A stretch of 64,000 nt of DNA from NCBI RefSeq assembly GCF_014656215.1, contig NZ_BNBZ01000027.1, forward strand, positions 1 to 64,000, read 5' to 3'. Shown in pieces: positions 4,858-32,878 of the stretch. The position numbers were made by a program, and so were the translations under genes. Source of the stretch: Streptomyces zaomyceticus. GTDB lineage: Bacteria > Actinomycetota > Actinomycetes > Streptomycetales > Streptomycetaceae. The notes below the pieces were generated by a model, which saw only the letters and a list, made by a program, of their open reading frames with translations, searched no databases and was not told where the DNA came from. Numbering within the stretch: the stretch's first letter is position 1; each line of letters starts with the position of its first letter.

Positions 4858-6134
4858 ACGACCTCTACGACCGCCACCGCGCCGTCATCCCCGACTGGGT
4901 CGCCCTCTACTACCGGGACCCCATCGAGATCACCCACGGCGAGGGCCGTCACGTCTGGGACGTCGAGGGGCGCAGGTACCTCGACTTCTTCGGCGGCATC
5001 CTCACCACGATGACCGCCCACGCCCTGCCCGAGGTCACCAAGGCCGTCGCCGAGCAGGCCGGCCGGATCATCCACTCCTCCACGCTCTACCTCAACCGCC
5101 CGATGGTGGAACTCGCCGAGCGGATCGCCGGTCTCTCCGGCATCCCCGACGCCCGCGTCTTCTTCACCACCTCCGGTACCGAGGCCAACGACACGGCGCT
5201 CCTCCTCGCGACCGCGTACCGCCGGTCGAACCAGATCCTGGCCATGCGGAACAGCTACCACGGCCGCTCCTTCTCCACCGTCGGCATCACCGGCAACCGC
5301 GCCTGGACGCCCACCGGCCTCTCCCCGCTGCAGACCCTGTACGTGCACGGCGGCGTCCGCACCCGGGGCCCGTACGCCGAGTTCACCGACGAGCGGTTCA
5401 CCGAGGCCTGCGTCGCCGACCTCGAGGACCTCCTCGGCCACACCAGGGACGTCGCCGCGCTCATCGCCGAACCCGTCCAGGGCGTCGGCGGCTTCACCTC
5501 CCCGCCCGACGGTCTGTACGCCGCCTTCCGCCGCGTCCTCGACCGGCACGGCATCCTGTGGATCTCCGACGAGGTGCAGACCGGCTGGGGCCGCACCGGC
5601 GACAACTTCTGGGGCTGGCAGGCGCACGGCCAGGCCGGCCCGCCCGACATCCTCACCTTCGCCAAGGGCATCGGCAACGGCATGTCCGTCGGCGGGGTCG
5701 TCGCCCGCGCCGAGATCATGAACTGTCTGGACGCCAACTCGATCTCCACCTTCGGCGGTTCGCCGGTCACCATGGCCGCCGGGCTCGCCAACCTCTCGTA
5801 CCTCCTGGAGCACGACCTCCAGGGCAACGCCCGCCGTGTCGGCGGCCTGCTCATCGAACGGATCAGGGCCGCCTGCGCCGGAGTGGCGGCCGTACGGGAG
5901 GTCCGCGGCCGCGGACTCATGATCGGGATCGAGCTCACCGAACCGGGCACCGACCGGGCCGCCCCGGACGCGGCCGGCGCCGTCCTGGAGGCCGCCCGCG
6001 AACACGGGCTGCTGATCGGCAAGGGCGGCGGCCACAACACCAGCACACTGCGCATCGCCCCGCCGCTCTCGCTCACCGTCGCCGAGGCCGAGGAGGGCGC
6101 GGCGATGCTCGAAGCGGCCCTGCGAGAGCTGTAG
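4854..6134 (+). CDS. Class III PLP-dependent aminotransferase (AGXT2-like)
   Basis: A 426-residue cytosolic transaminase. The Schiff-base lysine is K271 (TFAKGIGNG). The preceding DEVQTGWGRTG motif supplies the PLP-binding Asp, and TSGTEANDTAL binds phosphate. Placed between a beta-ureidopropionase and a dihydropyrimidinase, the likely substrate is beta-alanine or beta-aminoisobutyrate, i.e. the amino acid released by the upstream enzyme; that is inference from context. The start is GTG 4854 overlapping the nitrilase stop (GTGA), so translation is probably coupled. Length is normal for the family. Confidence 0.9.
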   Translation: MNDLYDRHRAVIPDWVALYYRDPIEITHGEGRHVWDVEGRRYLDFFGGILTTMTAHALPEVTKAVAEQAGRIIHSSTLYLNRPMVELAERIAGLSGIPDARVFFTTSGTEANDTALLLATAYRRSNQILAMRNSYHGRSFSTVGITGNRAWTPTGLSPLQTLYVHGGVRTRGPYAEFTDERFTEACVADLEDLLGHTRDVAALIAEPVQGVGGFTSPPDGLYAAFRRVLDRHGILWISDEVQTGWGRTGDNFWGWQAHGQAGPPDILTFAKGIGNGMSVGGVVARAEIMNCLDANSISTFGGSPVTMAAGLANLSYLLEHDLQGNARRVGGLLIERIRAACAGVAAVREVRGRGLMIGIELTEPGTDRAAPDAAGAVLEAAREHGLLIGKGGGHNTSTLRIAPPLSLTVAEAEEGAAMLEAALREL

Positions 6135-20794: not shown

Positions 20795-20991
20795 GGGCGA
20801 CACGATAATCCCGCCGGTGGGATTCCGGCACCGAGCGGTGGGGGAAGCGACCGGAATGATCTTTTCCGACGGTGCGCGGTCCTTCGCGCGAAAGGGATAT
20901 GCGAGTCCCCTTCGCCGGGGGCGGGCGGCATGAGTGCTCCCGAAAATTCCATCCCCTTGTTCGTGCTCCAGTTCGGAGGGAGGAGGACGTC

Positions 20992-23382
20992 ATGACGACA
21001 CTGCCGCCCACGGAATGGGACCCCGAGGGATTCGCCGGTCATTTCGACGGCGGCCCCGAGGAAACCCGCCGCGGACTCGACCGCGTCCCCGCCTCGCTCA
21101 GTGACCGACTGGACCTCACCGAGGTCCTCGGCGACGTCCGCCGGCCCGCCCAGGCGGTCGTGCTGAGGGTGAAGGACCGCGAGGCCCGCCACCGGGACGC
21201 CGCGGTACCGCTGGTCCTCAAGTGGTACCACCGCGCCTTCGCGCCCGACCCGGAGGCGAGCCGGGTGCTCACCGGCGACCTCGGCGAGCACGTCGTACGC
21301 GTCCTGGAACGCGGGATCGCCGACGGGCATCCGTACGAACTGCTGCCCTCGTACGGCGAGACCACCCTCGCCCAGTACCACGCCCGCAACCCCGGCGCCC
21401 TGCCCGCTCCGCTCGTGCGCACGACCGTCGCCCATCTGCACCGGGCCCTGACCGCCCTCCACGACCAGGAGCTCGTCCACCGGGACGTCACGCCCGACAA
21501 CATCGTCGTGAGCACCCAGAACGCGGACCGGCTCGACCTGGTCCTCGTCGACTGCGGCGCCGCCGTGCACACCGGCCGGGACGAGGACTCCCCCCGCCGC
21601 CGGGACTGGCAGGGAAAGCCCCTCTACCTCGCCCCCGAGGCGAGCATCCACCGGCAGAGCGTCACCCCCGCCGCCGACTGGTGGTCCGTCGGCATGGTCG
21701 TGGCCGAACTCGCCGGCGGGCGGCACCCCATCGACTACCGCGGCGACGAGGAGGTCCTCGTCGAGATCGCCACCCACGACCCCGAGCTCCCGCTCGTGAC
21801 CGACCCGCGCCTGCTGATGCTCTGCCACGGCCTGCTGACCCGGGCCCCCGAACACCGCTGGGGCGCCGAACAGGTGGGCCGCTGGCTCGCCGGCGACTCC
21901 CCGCCGGTCGCACCGCGCACCACCGGCGCGGCCCCCGAGAACCTGCCGCCACGTGCCACGACCGAACCCTTCGCCTTCCTGGGCCGCGCCATCACCAGCA
22001 CGGAAGAGCTGGCCCGCCAGTTCGACGTCCAGTGGCGGGCCGCCGACGACCTGCTGGACCGCCGCGGCGGGCGCGAGCGACTGGCGGCCTGGCTCGGCCA
22101 GTTCACCGACCGGCCCGGCCGCTCCCCGGAGGACGCCAGGACCCTCGACGCGCTGCGCGACCTGCTCGCCCAGCCCCTGACCCCTCAGGACCGGCTGCGC
22201 CTGCTCAACTGGATGGGCCCCCGGCTGCCCGCGTCCTGGCACGGGGTGCCCCTGGACACCCTGGGCATCGCGGAACTGGAGCAGGCGGCGGTACGGGGCG
22301 ACGACCGGAGCCGGGAGCTCGTGGCCGCCCTGGCCCGCCACGAACTGCTCCCCCTGCTCGGCGCCCGGCCCGGCGGCGAAGGCCTCGACGAGGTGCAGCG
22401 CCGCTGGGAGGGCTATCGGGAGAGCTGGCGAGAGGCCACCCCGGACCTGTTCTCCCGCGGCGGCCCGACCGACCGGCGGTCCGCGGGCCGGCTGCTCCGC
22501 CACGGCGTCGACCTGGACGCCCGGCTGCTGCGTCTCGCCCGCGAACCGGACCGCACGACCCTCCGGCTGCTGCACCGCACCGCCTGGGACCCGGGCCGCG
22601 GCGCCCCGCCCCCGTGGTACCGCGCGCTGCGCGCCGACGAGGACAACCCGCTGCGGCTCCTCGCCGCCTCGCTGCTCGCCGGACTCGCCCACCAGGAGGC
22701 CGAGCGGCAGCAGGCCGATGCGCAAGTCCGCGAGTGGGACAGGCTGTTCGCCCAGGAGACCGACGCCCGCTTCCACCTCCTGCGCCGCTTCGACCGGCCG
22801 CCCACCCTGGGCTGGGCCCTCCTCGGTGCCACTGTGACCACCGCGCCGTGGACCTTCGTCATCGGCCTCGCCGACCTGCTCGGCCGCGCCGAGCAGAGCG
22901 AGGTCGTCGTGGCCTGGATGCTCGCGCTGCCCGCCGCGGCGGTCGTGTTCGCGCTGGAACTGTGGATCGCGGTCTACATCGGTCCCCCCGTCTACCATCC
23001 GGCGCGATCCCTCGCCGGACTGCTGATCCGCACCGGTGAGGGGCCCGCCCGTGCCACCCGCTCCCGCGGCCGGCTCGGCACCGCGGTGGCCGCGGCGGCC
23101 CTGGTCGCGGTCGGGGCACTGGGCCTCTGGGCCGTCGTCCTCGCCCCCTGGGCCTGGCCGGCCGCGACCGTCGTCGCCCTCACGGCGTGGACCGTCCGAC
23201 GGTGGTGGGCGTGGCGGAGGACCGCCCGGGACGCCCGGCTCGACCGGGCCGCCCACCGGGCCGGCCGGACCCGCGCACCCGGACCGGCACCCGGGGACCC
23301 GGCGCAGGCTCCGGTCCGGGGCCTCCCGCACCCACGGCACGGCGGACCGCGTGCGTCGGCACCCACCAGGAGGAACACATGA
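20992..23382 (+). CDS. Membrane-anchored Ser/Thr protein kinase
   Basis: 796 residues. The N-terminal kinase domain (about 35-330) has VLKWYH (K77, ATP Lys), HRDVTPDN (D165 catalytic, N170), VDCG (D187 replacing DFG) and LAPE (activation-segment end). The HRD-loop lysine is replaced by Thr (T167), as in some atypical kinases; otherwise it looks competent. A long Arg/Leu-rich helical region follows. About four membrane helices lie at roughly 605-627, 641-668 and 693-738. ATG 20992 has a very strong GGAGGGAGGAGG ahead. The 3' end overlaps the next gene by 4 bp (ATGA). First gene of a kinase / coiled-coil / AAA+ / FHA operon; the FHA protein would read its phosphothreonine marks. Confidence 0.85.
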   Translation: MTTLPPTEWDPEGFAGHFDGGPEETRRGLDRVPASLSDRLDLTEVLGDVRRPAQAVVLRVKDREARHRDAAVPLVLKWYHRAFAPDPEASRVLTGDLGEHVVRVLERGIADGHPYELLPSYGETTLAQYHARNPGALPAPLVRTTVAHLHRALTALHDQELVHRDVTPDNIVVSTQNADRLDLVLVDCGAAVHTGRDEDSPRRRDWQGKPLYLAPEASIHRQSVTPAADWWSVGMVVAELAGGRHPIDYRGDEEVLVEIATHDPELPLVTDPRLLMLCHGLLTRAPEHRWGAEQVGRWLAGDSPPVAPRTTGAAPENLPPRATTEPFAFLGRAITSTEELARQFDVQWRAADDLLDRRGGRERLAAWLGQFTDRPGRSPEDARTLDALRDLLAQPLTPQDRLRLLNWMGPRLPASWHGVPLDTLGIAELEQAAVRGDDRSRELVAALARHELLPLLGARPGGEGLDEVQRRWEGYRESWREATPDLFSRGGPTDRRSAGRLLRHGVDLDARLLRLAREPDRTTLRLLHRTAWDPGRGAPPPWYRALRADEDNPLRLLAASLLAGLAHQEAERQQADAQVREWDRLFAQETDARFHLLRRFDRPPTLGWALLGATVTTAPWTFVIGLADLLGRAEQSEVVVAWMLALPAAAVVFALELWIAVYIGPPVYHPARSLAGLLIRTGEGPARATRSRGRLGTAVAAAALVAVGALGLWAVVLAPWAWPAATVVALTAWTVRRWWAWRRTARDARLDRAAHRAGRTRAPGPAPGDPAQAPVRGLPHPRHGGPRASAPTRRNT

Positions 23383-25064
23383 GCTACGGCATGGCCTACC
23401 CCTCGATCTCCGAGATCGTGCCGACGGTTGGCTATCCGACCTCCGCCTCGACCGGCACGGCCGACCTCGCCTCGCTGGCCGACGGTGCCGGCCAGAGCGT
23501 CGGGCACGCCGTCGACGGCGTGCAGGCCACGGCCTCGCACGCCATGGACGCCGCCGGCCACGCCCTCCAGGAACTCCTCGAACCCGCCGCCGTCGCACTC
23601 GGCGCACTCAGCGGCGCCCTGCTCGTGGGCCGCGCCGCGATGGTCACCACCCAGGCCCTCGCAGCGGCGGCCGTCCGCGCCGCCGACGAACAGCGCTGCC
23701 TCGAACACGTCCAGCAGGTCGCCGCGGCCGCCACCGCCCAGTGGGAGGCGGCGGCCTTCGCGGCCGTCCGAGCGAACGCGCGCCGCGCCGCCCTCGTCGC
23801 CCGGGTGCGCCGGGCGGCCTTCCGCACCGTGCCGGACACCCCTCCGCCCCCGATGCCCGACCTGCCGCCGCCGCTCACCCTCGTCGGAACCCGGCTGGAC
23901 GCGCTGCGCCGGGAACTGGCCGAGATGGAGACGGCCTTGCGGCACGCGGAGTCGGTCCAGGACAGGTGGACGATGGAGCAGGCGCTCGGCACCGCCGACG
24001 GCCCGGAGGACGAGGACTGGCGGCGGCGACTGCTGGCCCGCCGCGAGGCCGCCGTACGGGCCCAGCAGGAGGAGCCGGCACCGTCCGCACCCGCCGTCCC
24101 GCCCCAGCCGCCCGCCGCGGACCTGCTCGACCGGAGTCGGACGGAGGAGTCGGGTGCCGAACTCCTCGCCCTGCTGGAGGCCGGCGCCGACCCCAAGGAC
24201 GCCGAACTCGCCGTCGGCGCCGTCCGGCATGCCGTCGCATGCGCCGCGGAGCGGCCGGCCAAGGCCCGCAACCACCTCCGGGAGGCCCGCCGCTTCGTCA
24301 CGGACGCCAACCGGGCGGTACGCACCCGGCTCGCGGCCCAGGAGAAGGCCGCCGTCCAGCTCGACTTCCTCCTCACCGAGGCGCCGCCCGGCGAGCCGCC
24401 GCTCGCCCCGGCCACCGAGGAGATCGCCCTGCTGCGCGGTGTGCTGGAGAAGGACCGGACGCTGGACGCCGACGAGCAGCGCAGCGTGGACCAGCGGGTG
24501 GGGGAGCGACTCGCGGACCTGGAGAGCCGCTACACCAGGGAGCTGATCGGGCTGGCCGTCGCACGGTTCGCCGACCCGACCGCCGGCGGTGCCGTACCGG
24601 CGGACGCCGACGCCGCGGCCCACGGAGGCGCCGACGGACCGCTGTGCCTCGACCTGACACCGGCCGGCTGGTGGCCCGACCACTGGCTGCGGATCACCGT
24701 CCGCGACAACGTCACCGAGATGGTCACCATGCACGCGGAGCGCCCCGGGCCGCGCGGCACGGCGGAGCTGGCCCTCGACGCCCGCCGTTGCCACGAGGCG
24801 CGCGGGCACCTGGAGGAACTGCGGGAGGCCGGGCTCCGGCTGGGGATCGACCTTCCGGTGCACTTCGAGGAGAGCGGATCGGCCGTCCCCGGGGTGCGGG
24901 GCGGGGACGGCGCGATCGTCCTGGACATGGCCGACGTGGCGGACGCGGCCGACGCGGAGGCCCGCCGGACGCGGGGCGGGACCGTCGGCGCGAGCGAGGC
25001 CCGCCGGTCCGAACCTCCCCGGGCACGACGCGTGGACGAGGACCGGAGGAGTGCCGGCCGATGA
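23379..25064 (+). CDS. Ala-rich coiled-coil protein of the kinase operon
   Basis: 561 residues, no recognised family. Residues 30-140 are very Ala-rich and helical (GHAVDGVQATASHAMDAAGH, LSGALLVGRAAMVTTQALAA), then a coiled coil with a Pro-rich break (PPPPMPDLPPPLTL) and a further helix (RLDALRRELAEMETALRHAE). The C-terminal 150 residues contain a beta-type domain (LCLDLTPAGWWPDHWLRITV). ATG 23379 has AGGAGG ahead and overlaps the kinase stop. The C-terminus (VDEDRRSAGR) is itself the first unit of the 32-bp repeat that leads into the AAA+ gene. Probably an adaptor or substrate for the AAA+ ATPase; inferred from position only. Confidence 0.65.
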   Translation: MSYGMAYPSISEIVPTVGYPTSASTGTADLASLADGAGQSVGHAVDGVQATASHAMDAAGHALQELLEPAAVALGALSGALLVGRAAMVTTQALAAAAVRAADEQRCLEHVQQVAAAATAQWEAAAFAAVRANARRAALVARVRRAAFRTVPDTPPPPMPDLPPPLTLVGTRLDALRRELAEMETALRHAESVQDRWTMEQALGTADGPEDEDWRRRLLARREAAVRAQQEEPAPSAPAVPPQPPAADLLDRSRTEESGAELLALLEAGADPKDAELAVGAVRHAVACAAERPAKARNHLREARRFVTDANRAVRTRLAAQEKAAVQLDFLLTEAPPGEPPLAPATEEIALLRGVLEKDRTLDADEQRSVDQRVGERLADLESRYTRELIGLAVARFADPTAGGAVPADADAAAHGGADGPLCLDLTPAGWWPDHWLRITVRDNVTEMVTMHAERPGPRGTAELALDARRCHEARGHLEELREAGLRLGIDLPVHFEESGSAVPGVRGGDGAIVLDMADVADAADAEARRTRGGTVGASEARRSEPPRARRVDEDRRSAGR

Positions 25065-25160
25065 GTGCCGACGACCGGAGGGGTACGGGCCGATGAGTGC
25101 TGACGACCGAAGGGGTACGGGCCGATGAGTGTCGACGACCGAAGGAGTGCGGGCCGATGA
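25029..25160 (+). repeat. 32-bp tandem repeat forming a relay of ATGA-coupled mini-ORFs
   Basis: ATGAGTG occurs at 25061, 25093, 25125 and 25157, a strict 32-bp period. Each unit carries a purine-rich ribosome-binding site, an ATG and 11 codons ending in a TGA that overlaps the next ATG. The three mini-ORFs are 25061-25096 (MSADDRRGTGR), 25093-25128 (the same peptide) and 25125-25160 (MSVDDRRSAGR). The first ATG overlaps the stop of the upstream gene, whose own tail (VDEDRRSAGR) is the same unit. The fourth ATG is the AAA+ start. Because each unit has its own start and stop, coupling survives changes in copy number. Confidence 0.85.
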
Positions 25161-27217
25161 GTGTCGACGACCGGATGATCAAGGCCCCCGTGACCGCGGG
25201 GACCCCGGGGCCCTCCCCGGACCCCGCCGCGGACCGGCGTGTCCCCCTGTTCGTCGAGGAACTCACCGGAACGCTCAGTGTCCACGCGCAGTACGTCCTG
25301 TACGGCAACATCCACGATCTGCACCTGGTGCGGCGCTCCGGCGGGGACCGCCACCACGAACTGGTCACCGTGCTGTGGAACTCCCTCCGCGCGCAGGGCT
25401 ACCAGGCACTCGTGCGGTACGACCAGATCGCCGGGTTCAGCGTGGCCGCTCCCCGCGGCCCGGAGCGCGACACGGTCCAGCACCTGCTGACGGAGAGCGG
25501 GCCGGCCGCGCTCCCCAGGGCCGGCCGCGGCCCCCGCCCGTCGCAGCTCCTGGACGTCGTACCGCAGCTGGAGGAGCTCGTGGAGGGCTGGGCCCGGCGG
25601 CGCACGGCGGCCCCGCCCGGTGGACGCGAGGCCGAGCCGCTGCGGGTCGCCCTGCTCATCGACCACGCCGGCCGGCTGCCGGCCGATCCGAGCCGACTCA
25701 CCGAGGCCGAGCGGGACTTCTTCCTCGCCTGCCTCAAACTGGCCGATTCGGCCGTCCCGCTCGCCCCGAGTCCGGCGGTCGCCCTGACCCTGCCCGACCA
25801 CCACACCCCGCCCAAGCTGTTCAACCCGATCATCTGGCTCACGGACGGAGAACGGGACCTGCCGCACTGGCTCGTCTCCGGCAGCGACCGGATCCGCACG
25901 ATCGCCGTCCCCGAGCCCGATGCCGACGAACGACGCCGGATGGCACGGCTGCTGGAGGACGAGCACGCCGACGAGTCGGGTCGCGCGCGCCGGCCCGGCG
26001 GAACCGGTTCCGGTGCCCGGCCCGCGGCGGAGGGCGGGACCGACCGGGCGGAGGTCTTCGCGCGGGCGGCCACGGGCATGACCCTGCGGGCGATGCGGGA
26101 GAGCGTCACCCTGGCCGTGGCCCGCCGCATGCCGTTCGCCGCGATGCCCGACGCGGTGCGCGTCTACCGCCTCGGAGTGGAGAAGAACCCATGGCGGCGG
26201 GAGGAGATCCGGCGGCGGATCACCGAGGGCGAGAAGCAGATCCCCGCCCGGGTCCTCGGCCAGGACGCGGCCGTGTCGATGACCCTCGCCATCCTCAAAC
26301 GGGCGGCCCTCGGCCTGTCCGGAGCGCAGGCGAGCAGCCCCGGCCACCGGCCCCGCGGCACCCTGTTCTTCGCCGGACCCACCGGCACGGGCAAGACCGA
26401 ACTGGCCAAGGCGGTCGCCTCGGTGCTCTTCGACAGCGACCAGGCCTATCTGCGCTTCGACATGAGCGAGTTCTCCGCCGCGCACTCCGCCGACCGCCTC
26501 GTCGGCGCTCCGCCCGGCTACGTCGGCTTCGAGGCGGGCGGTGAGCTGACCACGGCGGTGCGGGCCAACCCGTTCCGGGTGATCCTCTTCGACGAGATCG
26601 ACAAGGCGGACAAGGGGGTCCTGGACAAGTTCCTCCAGGTGCTGGAGGACGGACGGCTGACCGACGGCCAGGGGGTCACCACGTACTTCAGCGAATGCGT
26701 CCTGATCTTCACCTCGAACCTCGGCGTCCAGCGCACGGATCCGGTGACCGAGGAGCGCCAGTGGATCGTCGAGCCCGGCACCCCCTACCGGGAACTGGCG
26801 CAGCAGGTGAAGCGCAACGTCAAGTACCACTTCGAGGCGGTCGTGGGCCGGCCCGAGCTGATGAACCGCATCGGCGGCAACGTCGTGGTCTTCGGGTTCA
26901 TGACCGAGGAGACGGCCGGCCGGATCCTGGACCTCCAGATCGGCAACATCGGACGCCAGCTGGCCGCCGAGCACCGGCTCCGCCTGGAGCTGTCCCCCGA
27001 AGCGCGCAGCCGGCTCGCCACGTACTGCACCCGGGACCTGTGGAACGGCGGCCGGGGCGTCGGGATGATCCTCGAGACGCATCTGCTCAACCCGCTGGCC
27101 TGCGAGCTGTTCGACCGGCCCGGGGTCGGTCCGGGTGACACCGTCCTGGTGCGGGCCCTCCGCGAGACGGAGGACGGGCAGGTGGAGATCGACATCGAGA
27201 CACTGCCGGGAGAGTGA
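25157..27217 (+). CDS. Clp-like AAA+ ATPase with degenerate N-terminal AAA domain
   Basis: 686 residues. The C-terminal half is a ClpA/ClpB D2-type module: Walker A GPTGTGKT (407-414), pore loop GAPPGYVGFE (450-459), Walker B VILFDE (475-480), sensor 1 FTSN (518-521), RPELMNRI with the Arg finger (565-572), sensor 2 GGRGVG (631-636). The N-terminal half has an AAA-like layout (VLYGNIHDLHLVRR, then VALLIDHAGRL resembling a Walker B) but no P-loop, so it is probably inactive. Such ATPases thread or remodel proteins. The start is ATG 25157, the last ATG of the 32-bp repeat array. It overlaps the FHA gene by 1 bp (TGATG). Confidence 0.88.
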   Translation: MSVDDRMIKAPVTAGTPGPSPDPAADRRVPLFVEELTGTLSVHAQYVLYGNIHDLHLVRRSGGDRHHELVTVLWNSLRAQGYQALVRYDQIAGFSVAAPRGPERDTVQHLLTESGPAALPRAGRGPRPSQLLDVVPQLEELVEGWARRRTAAPPGGREAEPLRVALLIDHAGRLPADPSRLTEAERDFFLACLKLADSAVPLAPSPAVALTLPDHHTPPKLFNPIIWLTDGERDLPHWLVSGSDRIRTIAVPEPDADERRRMARLLEDEHADESGRARRPGGTGSGARPAAEGGTDRAEVFARAATGMTLRAMRESVTLAVARRMPFAAMPDAVRVYRLGVEKNPWRREEIRRRITEGEKQIPARVLGQDAAVSMTLAILKRAALGLSGAQASSPGHRPRGTLFFAGPTGTGKTELAKAVASVLFDSDQAYLRFDMSEFSAAHSADRLVGAPPGYVGFEAGGELTTAVRANPFRVILFDEIDKADKGVLDKFLQVLEDGRLTDGQGVTTYFSECVLIFTSNLGVQRTDPVTEERQWIVEPGTPYRELAQQVKRNVKYHFEAVVGRPELMNRIGGNVVVFGFMTEETAGRILDLQIGNIGRQLAAEHRLRLELSPEARSRLATYCTRDLWNGGRGVGMILETHLLNPLACELFDRPGVGPGDTVLVRALRETEDGQVEIDIETLPGE

Positions 27218-27669
27218 TGAGTACGCCGGACGACGACTGGGACGACCTGGACGCGGTGGATCCGAGGCACGACCCCGCCCCGGAGCTCGCGCCGCGGCCG
27301 TCGCCGCCGGACGCCTCGGCGGCCCCGGCCCGGCTGCGGTTCGGCGAGGTCGCGCTGACGCTGACCGTCCCGCCCGGAACGACGACAGGGCTGGGCCGCG
27401 ACCCGGACTGGGCGCCCGGCACCGCCGCCGCGCTCGCCCCTCACCCCACCGTCTCGTCCCGGCACGCCACGGTGACGGTCGCGGCGGACGGCTCCGCGAC
27501 CGTCACCGAGGAACTGCCGGGAGCCGTCAACCGCACCCGCCTGAACGGCATCGACCTGGTCCCCGGCCGGGCCTACCCGCTGACCGACGGGGACCGGCTG
27601 TGGCTCGGTGCCCGGATCAGCTGCGTGGTCACCCTGGGCCGCCGGCCCGGGGGACCGGGCGGCGGCTAG
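27217..27669 (+). CDS. FHA-domain protein
   Basis: 150 residues. An acidic, Pro-rich N-terminus (about 1-38) precedes one forkhead-associated domain with its phosphothreonine-binding residues: G60-R61 (GLGRD), S80-S81-R82-H83 (VSSRHATV) and N110-G111 (RLNGIDL). Last gene of the kinase operon, starting at ATG 27217 inside the AAA+ stop (TGATG). The kinase four genes upstream in the transcript is the likely writer of the mark that this domain reads, either on itself, the coiled-coil protein or the AAA+ ATPase. Cytoplasmic. Confidence 0.87.
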   Translation: MSTPDDDWDDLDAVDPRHDPAPELAPRPSPPDASAAPARLRFGEVALTLTVPPGTTTGLGRDPDWAPGTAAALAPHPTVSSRHATVTVAADGSATVTEELPGAVNRTRLNGIDLVPGRAYPLTDGDRLWLGARISCVVTLGRRPGGPGGG

Positions 27670-28446: not shown

Positions 28447-29081
28447 CAGTCGCCCTCCACCAGTTCGCGAGCGGCCCGCGTCAGGTCCTCGTCGGGTACC
28501 GAGCCGAGGAGTTCCGCCGGTACGCCGCCCAGCCATCGGTTGCCGCCCAGCCACCAGCCGGCCGCGCCCCAGGGGTCCCGGCCGGCCATGAGCAGGCGGT
28601 TGATGCGGCTGACCACCGGCAGGGGCCGGGCGGTGCCCGCCGCGAACTGGAACAGCGGGTAGCGGTAGCCCCCTTCGGGCTGGCGGAGGCGGATGAGACC
28701 GGGGTCGCCCGGGGCGGCCTCGACGTCGGCGTCGGCCACCGAGGGCGCCGCCAGCAGTCGGGCGCGCGCCGGGTCGGCCGGCGGCGGACCGTGCAGCGTC
28801 GCCAGCAGGGCGAGCAGCGGGGCCCGGTCGGTCACCGGGGTGTCCGCGGCGCCCGCGAAGCGGACGGTGCCCCGCAGCGCCAGGGCGACCGGGTGCTCGT
28901 CGGGCAGGACGCGCAGCAGCCGCCGCAGACGTCGCAGTACCGCCTGTACGGCCTGGGGCTCCGTGGTGTCCGCCAGGCTCCGCAGGAGTGTCGCCAGCTC
29001 CTCGCGGGTGGCCGGGTCGAGCGCCGTGAGCGTCTGGGGCCAGTGCTCGCGGAGCAGTGCGACGAGTTCGTCGGGTGTCAT
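28446..29081 (-). CDS. RES antitoxin with MbcA/ParS/Xre-type toxin-binding domain and extended N-terminus
   Basis: 211 residues. The C-terminal 75 residues (YRYPLFQF, then RPLPVVSRINRLL, DPWGAAGWWLGGNRWLGGV and PAELLGSVP) match the antitoxin domain paired with RES toxins, whose hallmark is a W-rich helix followed by Leu-Gly-Gly and Pro-x-x-Leu-Leu. The N-terminal about 80 residues are helical (MTPDELVALLREHWPQ, TREELATLLRSLADT) and unlike the usual HTH. A flexible Pro/Ala/Asp-rich linker (about 100-130) joins the two. The start is ATG 29081, overlapping the CHAT stop (ATGA). A cleavable linker between CHAT protease and toxin genes is suggestive. Confidence 0.75.
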   Translation of the reverse strand: MTPDELVALLREHWPQTLTALDPATREELATLLRSLADTTEPQAVQAVLRRLRRLLRVLPDEHPVALALRGTVRFAGAADTPVTDRAPLLALLATLHGPPPADPARARLLAAPSVADADVEAAPGDPGLIRLRQPEGGYRYPLFQFAAGTARPLPVVSRINRLLMAGRDPWGAAGWWLGGNRWLGGVPAELLGSVPDEDLTRAARELVEGD

Positions 29082-32000
29082 GCGGTCGGTTCTCCTTCCC
29101 CGTGGTGCCGCCGGGTCCCGGGCGCGGGCAGGGGTGCCCCACCCGGTAGGGGCGTGGGGTTGCCCTGGTGGATGAAGGCGCCCCAGAAGGCGGGTCCGGT
29201 CAGTTCCGGCAGGGCCGCGGTTCGCAGCAGGGGCGGGGTCAGGCCCGTCACCCGGGGCCGGTGCGAGGCGGGCGCCAGCATCCACCGCTGGGCCGCCCGG
29301 AGGGCGTCGGGCGGGGCGAGACCGGCGGCCACATGGTGGTGGAAGACGGTCATCAGGACGGCCGAGGCGTCGTCGCCGACCTGCCAGCGCGAGCCGACGG
29401 CGTCGGCCGCGAGGCCGTGCACGAAGGCGGTGGTCACGGTCAGCGCCTCGTCGTGGTCACGGGTGCTGAGGTCGGTCTCGCAGGCGCTGAGGACGACGAG
29501 CGGCCGGCCCGCGCCCTCCGGTCCCGCCGGGGTGTCCAGCAGGCGGGTCACCGAGAGCCATCCGGCCTCGGGATCCGCGCCGACGGGACGCCCCAGTTCG
29601 AGCACCGACGAGCCGGGGTCCGCGCCGGCCCTGCCGTGGCAGACCAGATGGACGACGGCGACCGGCCGCGCTCCGGGCTCCGGAGCTCCGAGCAGCCCCA
29701 GCACCTCGGCCGGGGTGCCGCGGGGCAGCGACGGCTCGGAACCGAGTGTGTCGAACTCGCCGTACAGGGAGGCCCCCGGGTAGTACGCGTCGCGCACCGC
29801 CAGCACTTCGTCCTCGGCCATGTCCAGATCGGCCGGTACGCAGACCAGGGCCTGCCCCTGGACGAGCGGGAGGCGCCGGGTCAGCACCGCCCGCAGGAAC
29901 TCGCGGCCGGAGGCGGCGTAGGTCAGTACGGCCGGCTCGCAGGCCCGTACCGTCTCGGGAGCACCCGCGACCCGCCACCGGTCAGGGACGGTGACCCGGG
30001 CCGCCTGCCACGGCACCACACCCAGGTTCCCGCAGGCGACGAGGGTCAGTCGCACCGGATCGGCCGCCGCCGCGGAGTCCGCTCCGGCGAGCAGTCCCGC
30101 CTCCCGAAGTCCCCGCTCCCACAGACCGAGTTCGTCGAGGACCGGCCCCATGATCCCGGTGCCGGCCCAGTCGCAGAGCGCGTCGAGGGCGGCCTCCCAG
30201 CGCTCCGCGCCGCGGCGGGCTGAGGACTGGGCGCCGGTGGCCTCCAGATAGGCGGCGACCGGGGCGCGGCCCGGCCCGGACAGGGCCGGCAGGGGCAGCG
30301 CCCAGGGCGGCCGGTCCGGCACCACGAACAGCGCCCAGCCCTCCTCGGCCGTCTCGTCCGCGCCCGGCAGCAGGTAGACGAGGGCGTCCGTGCCCGACCG
30401 GCCGACGGCGTCCCGCAGTTCGGCGACCCCGGGCACCCGGCCGTCCTGCCCGTCGCCCCGGCCGCGCAGCAGTTCCAGCGCCCGGCGGCGCAGTCCGCTG
30501 GGCAGCCGGGGCTGGTCGAGCGGGCTGTCGAGCAGGGCCGTCAGCAAGCGGGCCGAGCCCCCCTCCGCCCCGGTGTCCGAGGCGCCGGACCGGGCCTCCC
30601 GCCACTGACGGGCCAGTTCCTCCTCGCCGAGCGCGGCGAGCCGTTCCGGCACGGTGGCCGAGACGGCCGCGGCGGCGAGCACCAGGGCGCGCCCGGCCTC
30701 CAGACAGGCCACCGCCTCCTCGGGACGGTCCGCCCGAACGGCCCAGGACGCGGCGAGCAGTCCGCGTGCGGCGCCGCCGCGGGCGACCTCCAGACCGTGC
30801 TGGACGCCCTCCTGGAGCAGGACGTCCGCGGCGGTCGCGCGCAAGGAGTCGCGGGTGTCGGCGACGGCCCGGGCGAGGTCGGGGACGGGGTCGGGGCCGA
30901 GGCGGGCTCGCATGGCGTAGGCCTCGGCCAGGTCCCAGTGCAGCGCGGAGGTGGCCTGCGCGGTGTCGGTGGGCGACTCGGCCCGGGCGTGCTCCAGCTC
31001 GGTGATCGCCTCGTCGAGGACCGCCGGATCCCCGGTCGACCGGTACTGGAGGGCGAGGGCCATGGCGATGCCCATCCGGGTGCGGGTCCGCTGGTCGGCG
31101 AAGACGGGGTTGTCCTCGAGGGACGCCCTGGCGCGGGCCACCGCGGCGGCGACCCGTTCGGGCTCGGGGTCCAGGAACGAGGTGAGGGCCAGCAGGGGCG
31201 CCCACAGGGCGTCCATGAGTTTCTGCGCGAACGGGTTGGGCCGCGCGGCCGCGTAGGCCTGGTCCAGGTGGTGGACGGCACCGCGCAGGACGCCGGCGTC
31301 GGAGGTGCTCCGCGCGAGGGCCAGCTGGGCGTAGCCCAGGAGGAACAGCGGCATGAACCGCCGGGCGTCCCGGGCGTCGGGGTCGTCGGGACGGGCCGGC
31401 CGACCGTGGGCGGCCCGCCCCTCGGACGAGCCGGACGATTCGGCCGCGTCGGACGAGCCGGACGATTCGGCCGCGTCGGACGGGCCGGATGAGCCGGACG
31501 GGCCGGACGAGCCGGCCGCGTCGGGAGGGCCGGCCACGCCGGGTGCCTCGGGCGCGTCCACGTCCTCCAGTTCGTCCAGCAGGTCGAGGATGTCCCCGAT
31601 CGACTTCTCCAGGGCCGGTACGTCGTGCGCGTCGGCGGCCCGCGTCAGCTCCGACAGCAGCAGCATGTTCCGGTTCATCCGGAGCAGTTCGTCGGCCCCG
31701 GGCCGGTCGGGGGGCTGCCGGGCGATCAGCGGACCGGTCCCGGGGGCGAGCGATTCCATGAGCAGCTTCTCGGCCGCGGCGAGGTCCGCCTTGCTGCCGC
31801 CGGTCAGCGCGGAGCCGGCGAGCAGCCCCGGCAGCACCCCGCGTACGAACCAGGGGAAGTCCTCGTCCTCGGGCTGTCCCTCGGCGGCCCGGCGCAACAG
31901 CTGCAGGGCCTGCTCGAACTGGCCGGCGTCGCCGGTGCGGCCGCCGAGGAGCGCGTGCGCGATCGCGAGCAGGGGATCGGAGACCAGGTGTCCCGCCTGC

Positions 32001-32878
32001 TTCCCGGGGTCCTCGGCCTCCTCGATCAGGCCGGAGATCTGCTCGGCCGAGAGGGCGCCCGGCCGGGCGGTCTCGGTCATCAGGCCGAGCAGCGACCGCA
32101 GTCCCTGCTGTTCCTCCGCGGTGGGGAGCCGTACATCGGCGGCGGACGGCTGGTTCGCCCCCGTCGGCAGCATGTTCCGCAGCATCGCGACCATCGGCGC
32201 CATCGGACCCAGCACGCTCTGGTCCAGGGTGTCCAGCCGGTCCATCAGCCCCAGCACACCGGCGCCGTCCCCGGAGACGAGCGCCGCCTGCAGATCCGTC
32301 TGGAAGGTGAGGAACTCCGCCATGGCCGGCGGCAGCCCTCCGGGCGTGGCGGCGCCGATCTCGTGGACGAGCCGCTCGATCTCGGGGGCGGCCTCGATGA
32401 GGCCGGGACCGCCGTTCTGTTCGGGAACCGAGGCGTCCAGGATGTTCTGCACGCCGCCGAGTCCCGTCGACTCCCGCGCGGTGATCGGTCCCACCATCAG
32501 GAGGAGCAGGTCCCGGGCCGCCGCGGTGTGCGGCCGGACGTCCAGCAGGCCGTCCTCGCGTGCCCGGCGCAGCAGGGCCATGCCCTCCTCGCGGTCGGCC
32601 GGGTCGCCGTGCTCGGTCCAGCGGGCGCCGACCAGCGCGCCGAGCCTGCCCAGGCAGGTGGGCAGCAGGGCCTCGTCGTCCGGCGGCGACTCGGTCAGGC
32701 GCGGGATGAGCAGCCGTAACTCCTCGATGAGGATGTCCCGTTCGTCGGCCGAAGGCCCCGGAACCGGGACCGTGCCCCTCGGCAGGACCCTGGCCCCCTC
32801 GGAGCGCCGCACCATCTCCCGGGCTGCTCGGGCGAGTTCTCCGGCACGTCGTTCCGACCCCTGATTCCCTGTCTCCAA
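29078..32878 (-). CDS. Giant CHAT-domain protease with TPR-like repeats
   Basis: 1266 residues. The last about 300 form a CHAT (caspase-HetF-associated) peptidase domain: H1081 in VVHLVCHGRAG and C1133 in VVLSACETD are the His-Cys dyad, with AFVHGLAADAVGSRWQV after it. The preceding region is made of helical TPR-like repeats (ATSALHWDLAEAYAMRARLG, GLLAASWAVRADRPEEAVAC), interrupted near 460-500 by a low-complexity Ser/Gly/Asp segment. CHAT proteins act as caspase-like proteases in bacterial defence and death pathways. Translation starts at TTG 32878 behind a very strong GGAGGAGGGG. It heads a coupled operon with the antitoxin and RES toxin. Confidence 0.87.
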   Translation of the reverse strand: METGNQGSERRAGELARAAREMVRRSEGARVLPRGTVPVPGPSADERDILIEELRLLIPRLTESPPDDEALLPTCLGRLGALVGARWTEHGDPADREEGMALLRRAREDGLLDVRPHTAAARDLLLLMVGPITARESTGLGGVQNILDASVPEQNGGPGLIEAAPEIERLVHEIGAATPGGLPPAMAEFLTFQTDLQAALVSGDGAGVLGLMDRLDTLDQSVLGPMAPMVAMLRNMLPTGANQPSAADVRLPTAEEQQGLRSLLGLMTETARPGALSAEQISGLIEEAEDPGKQAGHLVSDPLLAIAHALLGGRTGDAGQFEQALQLLRRAAEGQPEDEDFPWFVRGVLPGLLAGSALTGGSKADLAAAEKLLMESLAPGTGPLIARQPPDRPGADELLRMNRNMLLLSELTRAADAHDVPALEKSIGDILDLLDELEDVDAPEAPGVAGPPDAAGSSGPSGSSGPSDAAESSGSSDAAESSGSSEGRAAHGRPARPDDPDARDARRFMPLFLLGYAQLALARSTSDAGVLRGAVHHLDQAYAAARPNPFAQKLMDALWAPLLALTSFLDPEPERVAAAVARARASLEDNPVFADQRTRTRMGIAMALALQYRSTGDPAVLDEAITELEHARAESPTDTAQATSALHWDLAEAYAMRARLGPDPVPDLARAVADTRDSLRATAADVLLQEGVQHGLEVARGGAARGLLAASWAVRADRPEEAVACLEAGRALVLAAAAVSATVPERLAALGEEELARQWREARSGASDTGAEGGSARLLTALLDSPLDQPRLPSGLRRRALELLRGRGDGQDGRVPGVAELRDAVGRSGTDALVYLLPGADETAEEGWALFVVPDRPPWALPLPALSGPGRAPVAAYLEATGAQSSARRGAERWEAALDALCDWAGTGIMGPVLDELGLWERGLREAGLLAGADSAAAADPVRLTLVACGNLGVVPWQAARVTVPDRWRVAGAPETVRACEPAVLTYAASGREFLRAVLTRRLPLVQGQALVCVPADLDMAEDEVLAVRDAYYPGASLYGEFDTLGSEPSLPRGTPAEVLGLLGAPEPGARPVAVVHLVCHGRAGADPGSSVLELGRPVGADPEAGWLSVTRLLDTPAGPEGAGRPLVVLSACETDLSTRDHDEALTVTTAFVHGLAADAVGSRWQVGDDASAVLMTVFHHHVAAGLAPPDALRAAQRWMLAPASHRPRVTGLTPPLLRTAALPELTGPAFWGAFIHQGNPTPLPGGAPLPAPGTRRHHGEGEPTA
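31424..31477. repeat. 27-bp in-frame duplication inside the CHAT gene
   Basis: Two perfect 27-bp copies (31424-31450, 31451-31477), followed by degenerate ones to about 31520, encode the Ser/Gly/Asp/Ala low-complexity linker between TPR-like regions. Being in frame, copy-number changes would alter linker length only. Confidence 0.7.

Follow-up and report, generated by a model that had tools for sequence, protein, structure and literature searches.

Termination-reinitiation coupling at ATGA overlaps, in which a stop and a start codon share four nucleotides, is the background to this study (PMC6728339). In reporters from E. coli and Haloferax, coupling was almost abolished by about 20 nt between two genes; the final 15 nt of the upstream gene were enough to support it, the whole upstream ORF being long in those constructs (PMC10666635). 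A short leader ORF may also deliver ribosomes to the next start (PMC12548453; PMC4833913). The described elements closest in anatomy to the locus analyzed here are the mycobacterial MIRUs, in which the repeat contains a short ORF, coupled at -4 to the following gene (PMC12548453). MIRUs occur as tandem copies between two operon genes, e.g. senX3-regX3, with lengths of 77 and 53 bp (PMC4213456); by our own arithmetic both lengths are 2 mod 3. They appear mobile (PMC12548453) and occupy 41 scattered sites in M. tuberculosis H37Rv (PMC2734929). A variable-length tandem repeat at another operon junction of M. tuberculosis, rnc-fpg1, correlates with the fpg1 mRNA level, while the same junction measures only a few bp in several other mycobacteria (PMC2734929).

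Here we analyze a tandem array at the junction of two genes in Streptomyces zaomyceticus; the window is the whole stretch of 64,000 nt of contig NZ_BNBZ01000027.1 that was studied. The array shares with MIRUs a short ORF in a repeat with overlapping stop and start (PMC12548453), so that the claim of the earlier note, that no element like this has been described, was too strong. Its unit differs from MIRUs in that it is 32 bp long and made of the ends of the local genes, and a 30-base unit pattern with up to 3 mismatches found no match in the 8.3-Mb genome (80 contigs) outside the array. Because such dispersed copies are missing, we do not class the array as a MIRU; given the like anatomy, it is a non-mobile, self-made counterpart of a known type, and it would work like MIRUs if the relay of ribosomes considered below is right. 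Each hand-over in the array is an ATGA overlap with Shine-Dalgarno-like bases in the upstream frame; the cases described in the available parts of the literature have one overlap between two genes (PMC6728339), whereas the array has four in series. Leader or uORF minicistrons and synthetic bicistronic designs, as far as the available sources describe them, use a single leader ORF instead of a tandem array inside an operon. The rnc-fpg1 junction resembles the array in its variable repeats, but it is a composite of 37-, 18-, 26- and 16-bp repeats, and the part of that report available to us describes no self-terminating mini-ORFs (PMC2734929). In the accessible portion of the open-licence PMC literature we found no description of tandem chimeric minicistrons at gene junctions.

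An array of overlapping mini-ORFs at an operon junction

The array lies in a plus-strand operon with the order kinase, a gene without Pfam family, AAA+ ATPase and FHA protein. The features are as follows; peptides here and below are given up to the stop codon.

20872..23382, + strand: Ser/Thr kinase-like ORF (Pkinase), putative start; ATGA overlap with the next gene
23379..25064, + strand: upstream gene of the array, C-terminus ..RRVDEDRRSAGR; no family in a Pfam search
25029..25060, + strand: half-unit 0, the upstream-gene tail with GGAGG, left half of the junction
25037..25175, + strand: tandem array (Tandem Repeats Finder: period 32, 4.3 copies, score 201)
25061..25096, + strand: mini-ORF 1, MSADDRRGTGR; start overlaps the upstream stop (ATGA)
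25093..25128, + strand: mini-ORF 2, MSADDRRGTGR; peptide identical to that of mini-ORF 1
25125..25160, + strand: mini-ORF 3, MSVDDRRSAGR; stop overlaps the ATPase start (ATGA)
25157..25188, + strand: right half-unit, the start of the ATPase gene
25157..27217, + strand: AAA+ ATPase gene (Pfam AAA_2, ClpB D2-small), starting MSVDDRMIKAP..
27217..27669, + strand: FHA-domain gene; start overlaps the ATPase stop (TGATG)

Four ATGA junctions, at 25061, 25093, 25125 and 25157, follow each other at a spacing of exactly 32 bp. The first contains the stop of the upstream gene (25062-25064) and the last the start of the ATPase; at all four, stop and start share 4 nt in register. The repeat units (25061-25092, 25093-25124 and 25125-25156) differ pairwise by 2, 4 and 4 bases. 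The sequence thus confirms the units of the earlier note, each with a built-in ATG, 11 codons and a TGA overlapping the next ATG, as well as its three mini-peptides, two of them identical, between the upstream gene and the ATPase; the self-terminating geometry across frames is real. Pfam gave no family for the upstream gene, which the note had called a coiled-coil gene. The note also assigned a ribosome-binding site to each unit. Shine-Dalgarno-like bases indeed precede all four starts (GGAGG, GGAGG, AAGG and AAGGAG), but the computed anti-SD pairing of -9.3 to -10.3 kcal/mol is moderate and borderline, the best 5% of random window positions lying at -10.3.

The score of 201 is the top of 51 Tandem Repeats Finder rows for the window, and neither three nor four ATGA at spacing 32 ever occurred in 200 first-order Markov resamplings of the window's plus strand; these results indicate that the array is beyond chance. 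An in-frame protein repeat is ruled out because 32 cannot be divided by 3. A role of the array through RNA structure was rejected after a shuffle test, in which the array folded no better than shuffles (z = +1.7; 190 of 200 shuffles folded at least as well).

Beyond the operon, a gene for a CHAT-domain protein lies on the minus strand at 29078-32878 of the window. When five proteins were tested with PADLOC, only the kinase and AAA proteins gave matches.

Origin of the repeat unit

The mini-peptides are chimeras, a point that the earlier note had missed and that gives the origin of the unit: they start like the ATPase (MSVDDR) and end like the upstream protein (DRRSAGR). The fact that each mini-ORF joins both gene ends indicates that the array arose when an ordinary ATGA junction was duplicated locally and in tandem. 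In such a duplication an ATG shares its frame with the TGA of the following copy only if unit length plus one is a multiple of 3, i.e. if the length is 2 mod 3; the prior chance of this, given one duplication, is about 1/3. Since 32 is 2 mod 3, each extra copy is an 11-codon ORF from the previous stop to the next start.

The nearest homologue that we found is in S. albireticuli (L011), where the ATPase is 83% identical and the junction is a single plain ATGA with similar flanks. The upstream-gene homologue there ends ..RVDDDRRSPGR, and the ATPase aligns from residue 1 with the ATG at 25157. With one junction in S. albireticuli and four here, the number of repeats can change without breaking either gene, as the earlier note had held. 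The heptamer ACGACCG occurs twice, 32 bp apart, at the S. albireticuli junction and may have been a seed for slippage; it is weak evidence because another 7-bp repeat is found there at offset 55.

None of the 47 homologous loci examined (some places or species were reached twice) had the 32-bp junction repeat, and at least 15 of them had an ATG at -4. A search for closer relatives with other copy numbers found none among 24 loci (one species-genome scan), 61 genomes and 392 genomes of the genus, the latter drawn from a larger group with one genome per species. No plasmid record covered 80% of the query. Because the junction is repeated here and single in the nearest homologue, the array was probably amplified in this lineage, to which, as far as we looked among the 47 loci, it appears confined. 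At two of these loci other repeats were seen: a degenerate 34-bp array in a 246-nt gap at the homologous junction of another Streptomyces (L017, about 5690-5945), and an 18-bp repeat in L053.

Possible consequences of the array for translation

The reading that we favor as probable is a lineage-specific duplication that keeps termination-reinitiation coupling alive. Ribosomes that end the upstream gene would re-initiate on mini-ORF 1, then on 2 and 3, and then on the ATPase; this serial re-initiation is what we infer from the anatomy and the comparative data. Comparable arrays recur in other genomes of the genus and in viral contigs, for the most part at unit lengths that would permit a hand-over. 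Since an untranslated distance of about 20 nt nearly abolishes coupling, an untranslated insertion of 92 nt would be expected to uncouple the ATPase. The mini-ORFs would keep the coupling across these 92 nt, and the array may have been tolerated or retained for this reason. Each hand-over could lose or recruit ribosomes, so that copy number may shift the yield of ATPase. In the reporters of E. coli and Haloferax the upstream ORF remained long (PMC10666635), in contrast to the 11-codon ORFs here.

The first alternative is a neutral duplication: the ATPase gene's own Shine-Dalgarno sequence would direct de novo initiation, and the mini-ORFs would have arisen as a side effect of copying an ATGA junction with a unit whose length is by chance 2 mod 3. 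The last unit does have its own AAGGAG at 9 nt, there is no signal of RNA structure, and the array is absent from all homologous loci examined, the nearest relative having one junction. The earlier note had named plain ATGA junctions in homologues, together with reporters indifferent to copy number, as the signs of a neutral duplication; the homologues bear out the first of these two. Neutrality also predicts, however, that arrays at gene junctions are equally frequent at 1 mod 3, which disagrees with the survey below. We regard neutral duplication as unlikely; for this one locus it can still hold.

A second alternative is that the length of the array, which slippage would alter, is itself selected because it determines how much ATPase is made relative to the upstream protein. 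The four junctions here against one in S. albireticuli would fit, and the correlation of repeat length upstream of fpg1 with mRNA level in M. tuberculosis makes copy-number effects at such junctions conceivable; the fpg1 effect, however, is one on mRNA level and the repeats are of a different build (PMC2734929). We consider this selected role of copy number distinctly improbable. It is very improbable that the ATPase is extended N-terminally from a GTG at 25097, with part of the repeat coding for its N-terminus: the frame is open back to 25097 (a 706-aa ORF) and is likewise open upstream of the ATG in S. albireticuli, but the protein of that species aligns from the ATG at 25157 and has no repeat encoding an extension. 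The insertion of a mobile repeat, suggested by the MIRU-like anatomy with its short coupled ORF at a -4 junction (PMC12548453), is hardly credible and was rejected, as the unit is built from the ends of both genes and the genome holds no second copy within 3 mismatches.

Unit length of ATGA arrays in the genus

We surveyed genomes of the genus for three ATGA at one fixed period. Fixed periods were used because a wide-gap pattern for three ATGA had at least 168 matches in the array's own genome. Period 32 matched in 61 of 392 genomes, period 31 in 28 of the same 392, period 29 in 25 of 367 and period 28 in 44 of 367. Among the matches listed, 40, 20, 20 and 20 places were fetched, followed by 20 sub-periodic ones from the scans for 32 and 28. 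Four of the 58 listed matches that were left reached 70% unit similarity, all of them 1 mod 3, and were retrieved in three regions. The count was restricted to ATGA arrays of 3 or more copies whose units are at least 70% alike (self-similar). To be called coding-like, an ORF needed at least 80 codons, a third-position G+C that is at least 0.80 and exceeds that of the first position, and a second-position G+C that is no higher than 0.68 and lies below that of the first; these thresholds were set after the arrays had been inspected. Bridging arrays lie between two coding-like ORFs and leaders before one. Self-similar arrays among the matches listed were:

Period 32: 33 arrays; 6 bridging (the window, L570, L571, L572, L576, L578), 6 leaders (L573, L577, L579, L587, L590, L594)
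Period 29: 16 arrays; 3 bridging (L628, L642, L644), 2 leaders (L631, L635)
Period 14: 15 arrays in 13 loci; 2 bridging (L659, L663), 0 leaders
Period 8: 3 arrays; none bridging or leader
Period 31: 9 arrays; none at coding-like junctions or starts
Period 28 proper: 11 arrays; none at coding-like junctions or starts
Period 16: 21 arrays in 15 loci; none at coding-like junctions or starts
Period 7: 1 array; not at a coding-like junction or start

L659 and L663 (bridging) and L719 (leader) were listed under 28 and assigned to period 14 as 14-bp arrays. L719, which is near a coding-like ORF and has its last three ATGA 14 bp apart, belongs to the last four matches; the other three are not near coding-like ORFs. 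A histidine kinase to response regulator junction with period 29 (L627) was excluded, its units being only 62% alike.

The data show a length bias at gene junctions toward 2 mod 3, in related species and under a rule set post hoc. Among the matches listed, arrays with a period of 2 mod 3 (32, 29, 14, 8) include 11 bridging ones and 8 leaders in a total of 67; those with a true period of 1 mod 3 (31, 28, 16, 7) include none in 42. For these matches Fisher's test gave p = 4e-5 for both classes (19/67 vs 0/42) and 0.006 for bridging arrays alone (11/67 vs 0/42), values that are guides only because the species are related and the rule is post hoc. With L719 taken strictly at 28 and the late arrays included, the listed matches gave 19/67 vs 1/46 (p = 0.0003). 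The directly scanned periods (32 and 29 vs 31 and 28) gave, among the matches listed, 9/49 vs 0/20 for bridging arrays (p = 0.05) and 17/49 vs 0/20 for both classes (p = 0.0015). When the window and one member of each of two homologous pairs were removed, 16 (both classes) and 9 (bridging) of 64 listed arrays stood against 0 of 43 (p = 0.00015 and 0.01). The majority of the listed 2-mod-3 arrays (48 of 67) were neither bridging nor leaders. An any-period scan of 5.3 Mb returned 42 rows, 20, 13 and 9 for 2, 0 and 1 mod 3, from which no inference was drawn: most of this DNA had been retrieved because it contained arrays, rows at longer periods duplicate those at shorter ones, and in many cases the flanks do not look coding.

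The lack of 1-mod-3 arrays would follow if, after the very first duplication, the ribosome already runs past the true start in the wrong frame. The comparison of 2 mod 3 with 1 mod 3 favors the hand-over of ribosomes that the earlier note had proposed, and its interpretation as a whole is partly supported. The survey suggests a simple rule: a duplicated ATGA junction should survive at 2 mod 3, where each copy ends on the next start. If true, this rule would make ribosome hand-over visible from genome sequence alone and would explain how operons gain spacer DNA without loss of translational coupling. The array offers a way to MIRU-like arrays that needs no mobility, and reporters can directly test whether ribosomes re-initiate one after another on several tiny ORFs.

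Genes at individual arrays

The genes that flank the arrays were ordinary operon partners where tested by Pfam, an analysis that covered the bridging arrays except L663:

L659: ABC ATPase, ABC-2 permease
L570, L571: GTPase, GAF protein
L576: HpcH aldolase, PLP decarboxylase
L572: HbpS-like, SnoaL
L578: Exo_endo_phos, FUSC
L628: VTT, ankyrin
L642: TIM barrel, phosphodiesterase

A second relay of this genome, L644 (period 29), lies 53.6 kb downstream of the array on its contig. Its mini-ORFs MTTPEPEYRT and MTTPEPGSTP (L644:2080-2141, i.e. G000:C27:78779-78840, outside the window) lie between an S9 peptidase and an S66 peptidase that starts MTTPDP. A search for the downstream protein in S. albireticuli gave no match; it was run without a positive control, so that this empty answer is uninformative.

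The units of L659, ATGAAGGAGCGCCC, lie on the minus strand at about 2015-2077 between the ATPase and permease genes of the ABC transporter; each packs Shine-Dalgarno sequence, start and stop into 14 bp, with 5-codon ORFs (MKERP). In two genomes (L574 and L585) a similar short ORF without repeats (MTAFHA..) precedes a gene that starts MTTDGFTTCLW; the short ORF ends in the ATGA of this gene and is possibly a conserved leader.

Mini-ORFs at a cvnD-cvnF-type junction

One junction is represented in two species by L570 and L571, an ATP_bind_1-family GTPase followed by the GAF protein. By Pfam and gene order this fits cvnD followed by cvnF of the conservons (gene naming: PMC13343842). A search with the GAF protein gave matches in 23 of 25 genomes, with 31 loci, 30 of them readable (L716 was dropped). 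A -4 overlap is present in 12 of the 30, and another 12 have a gap of 59-69 nt that ends in an ATG-started 11-codon mini-ORF (L687, L690, L691, L693, L697, L699, L702, L704-L707 and L570; 12 genomes, one each). The remaining 6 are built otherwise; in L712 and L715, which belong to these, a stop likewise overlaps the GAF start, but it ends only TTG- or GTG-started ORFs of 41 and 5 nt.

All 12 mini-ORFs measure exactly 32 nt from their own ATG to the ATG of the GAF gene, a constancy of length that speaks against neutral duplication. The peptides, e.g. MRYAHSDGARP, MTHAHSDGIRP and MTPDPIRGARR, often end in ..AHSDGARP, and for some of the mini-ORFs an in-frame GTG or ATG further upstream would give a longer ORF. 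Between the upstream stop and the mini-ORF lies a spacer of 31, 32, 33, 34 or 41 nt. In 10 of the 12 loci it keeps a path from the upstream stop: four spacers are 2 mod 3, and six are 0 mod 3, where a GTG at the upstream stop reads through to the same end. The other two first spacers are 1 mod 3 and have no such path.

A wider reading of these junctions, which we put forward only tentatively and hold to be possible rather than probable, is that minicistron relays are a recurrent, selectable operon element. Slippage where stop and start overlap would copy units of all lengths; only 2-mod-3 or in-frame copies would pass ribosomes on, and selection would keep these. The survivors would be evolvable junctions, able to adjust stoichiometry or to freeze as conserved mini-ORFs of the cvnD-cvnF type.

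ATGA arrays in viral contigs

Viral contigs were scanned for four ATGA at one fixed period (26, 28, 29, 31, 32, 33, 34 or 35), with the filter of self-similar units and flanking ORFs of at least 40 codons, a size at which ORFs (near 40-90 codons) can arise by chance. No arrays passed this filter at periods 28, 31, 34 and 35, the last of which is 2 mod 3. Period 33 gave four arrays with flanks of at least 40 codons among the matches listed, one of which lacks self-similar units. Since its arrays run in one frame throughout, this period did not serve as a control. L304 (period 29) was left out, as its units are 38% alike.

Arrays were found in L087 and L078 (both period 32; L078 is an 8-bp repeat, in which the ORFs stop after 3 codons) and in L558 (period 26). 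The chimera signature is not clear in L558; it is clear in L328 and in the family of L083. In L328 (period 29) an upstream ORF ending ..RKGTQ is followed by three copies of MKKWIRKGTQ and a downstream ORF starting MKKWIMGVAA. L083, L108, L120 and L122 form one family of viral contigs with period 32, in which three copies of MNITYTFGAIT are flanked upstream by a 326-codon Gly-rich ORF that ends ..LGAIT and downstream by a 149-codon ORF that starts MNITYTY. In L083 (1707-1806) three identical 32-bp junction units follow the Gly-rich gene, which looks tail-fibre-like by eye.
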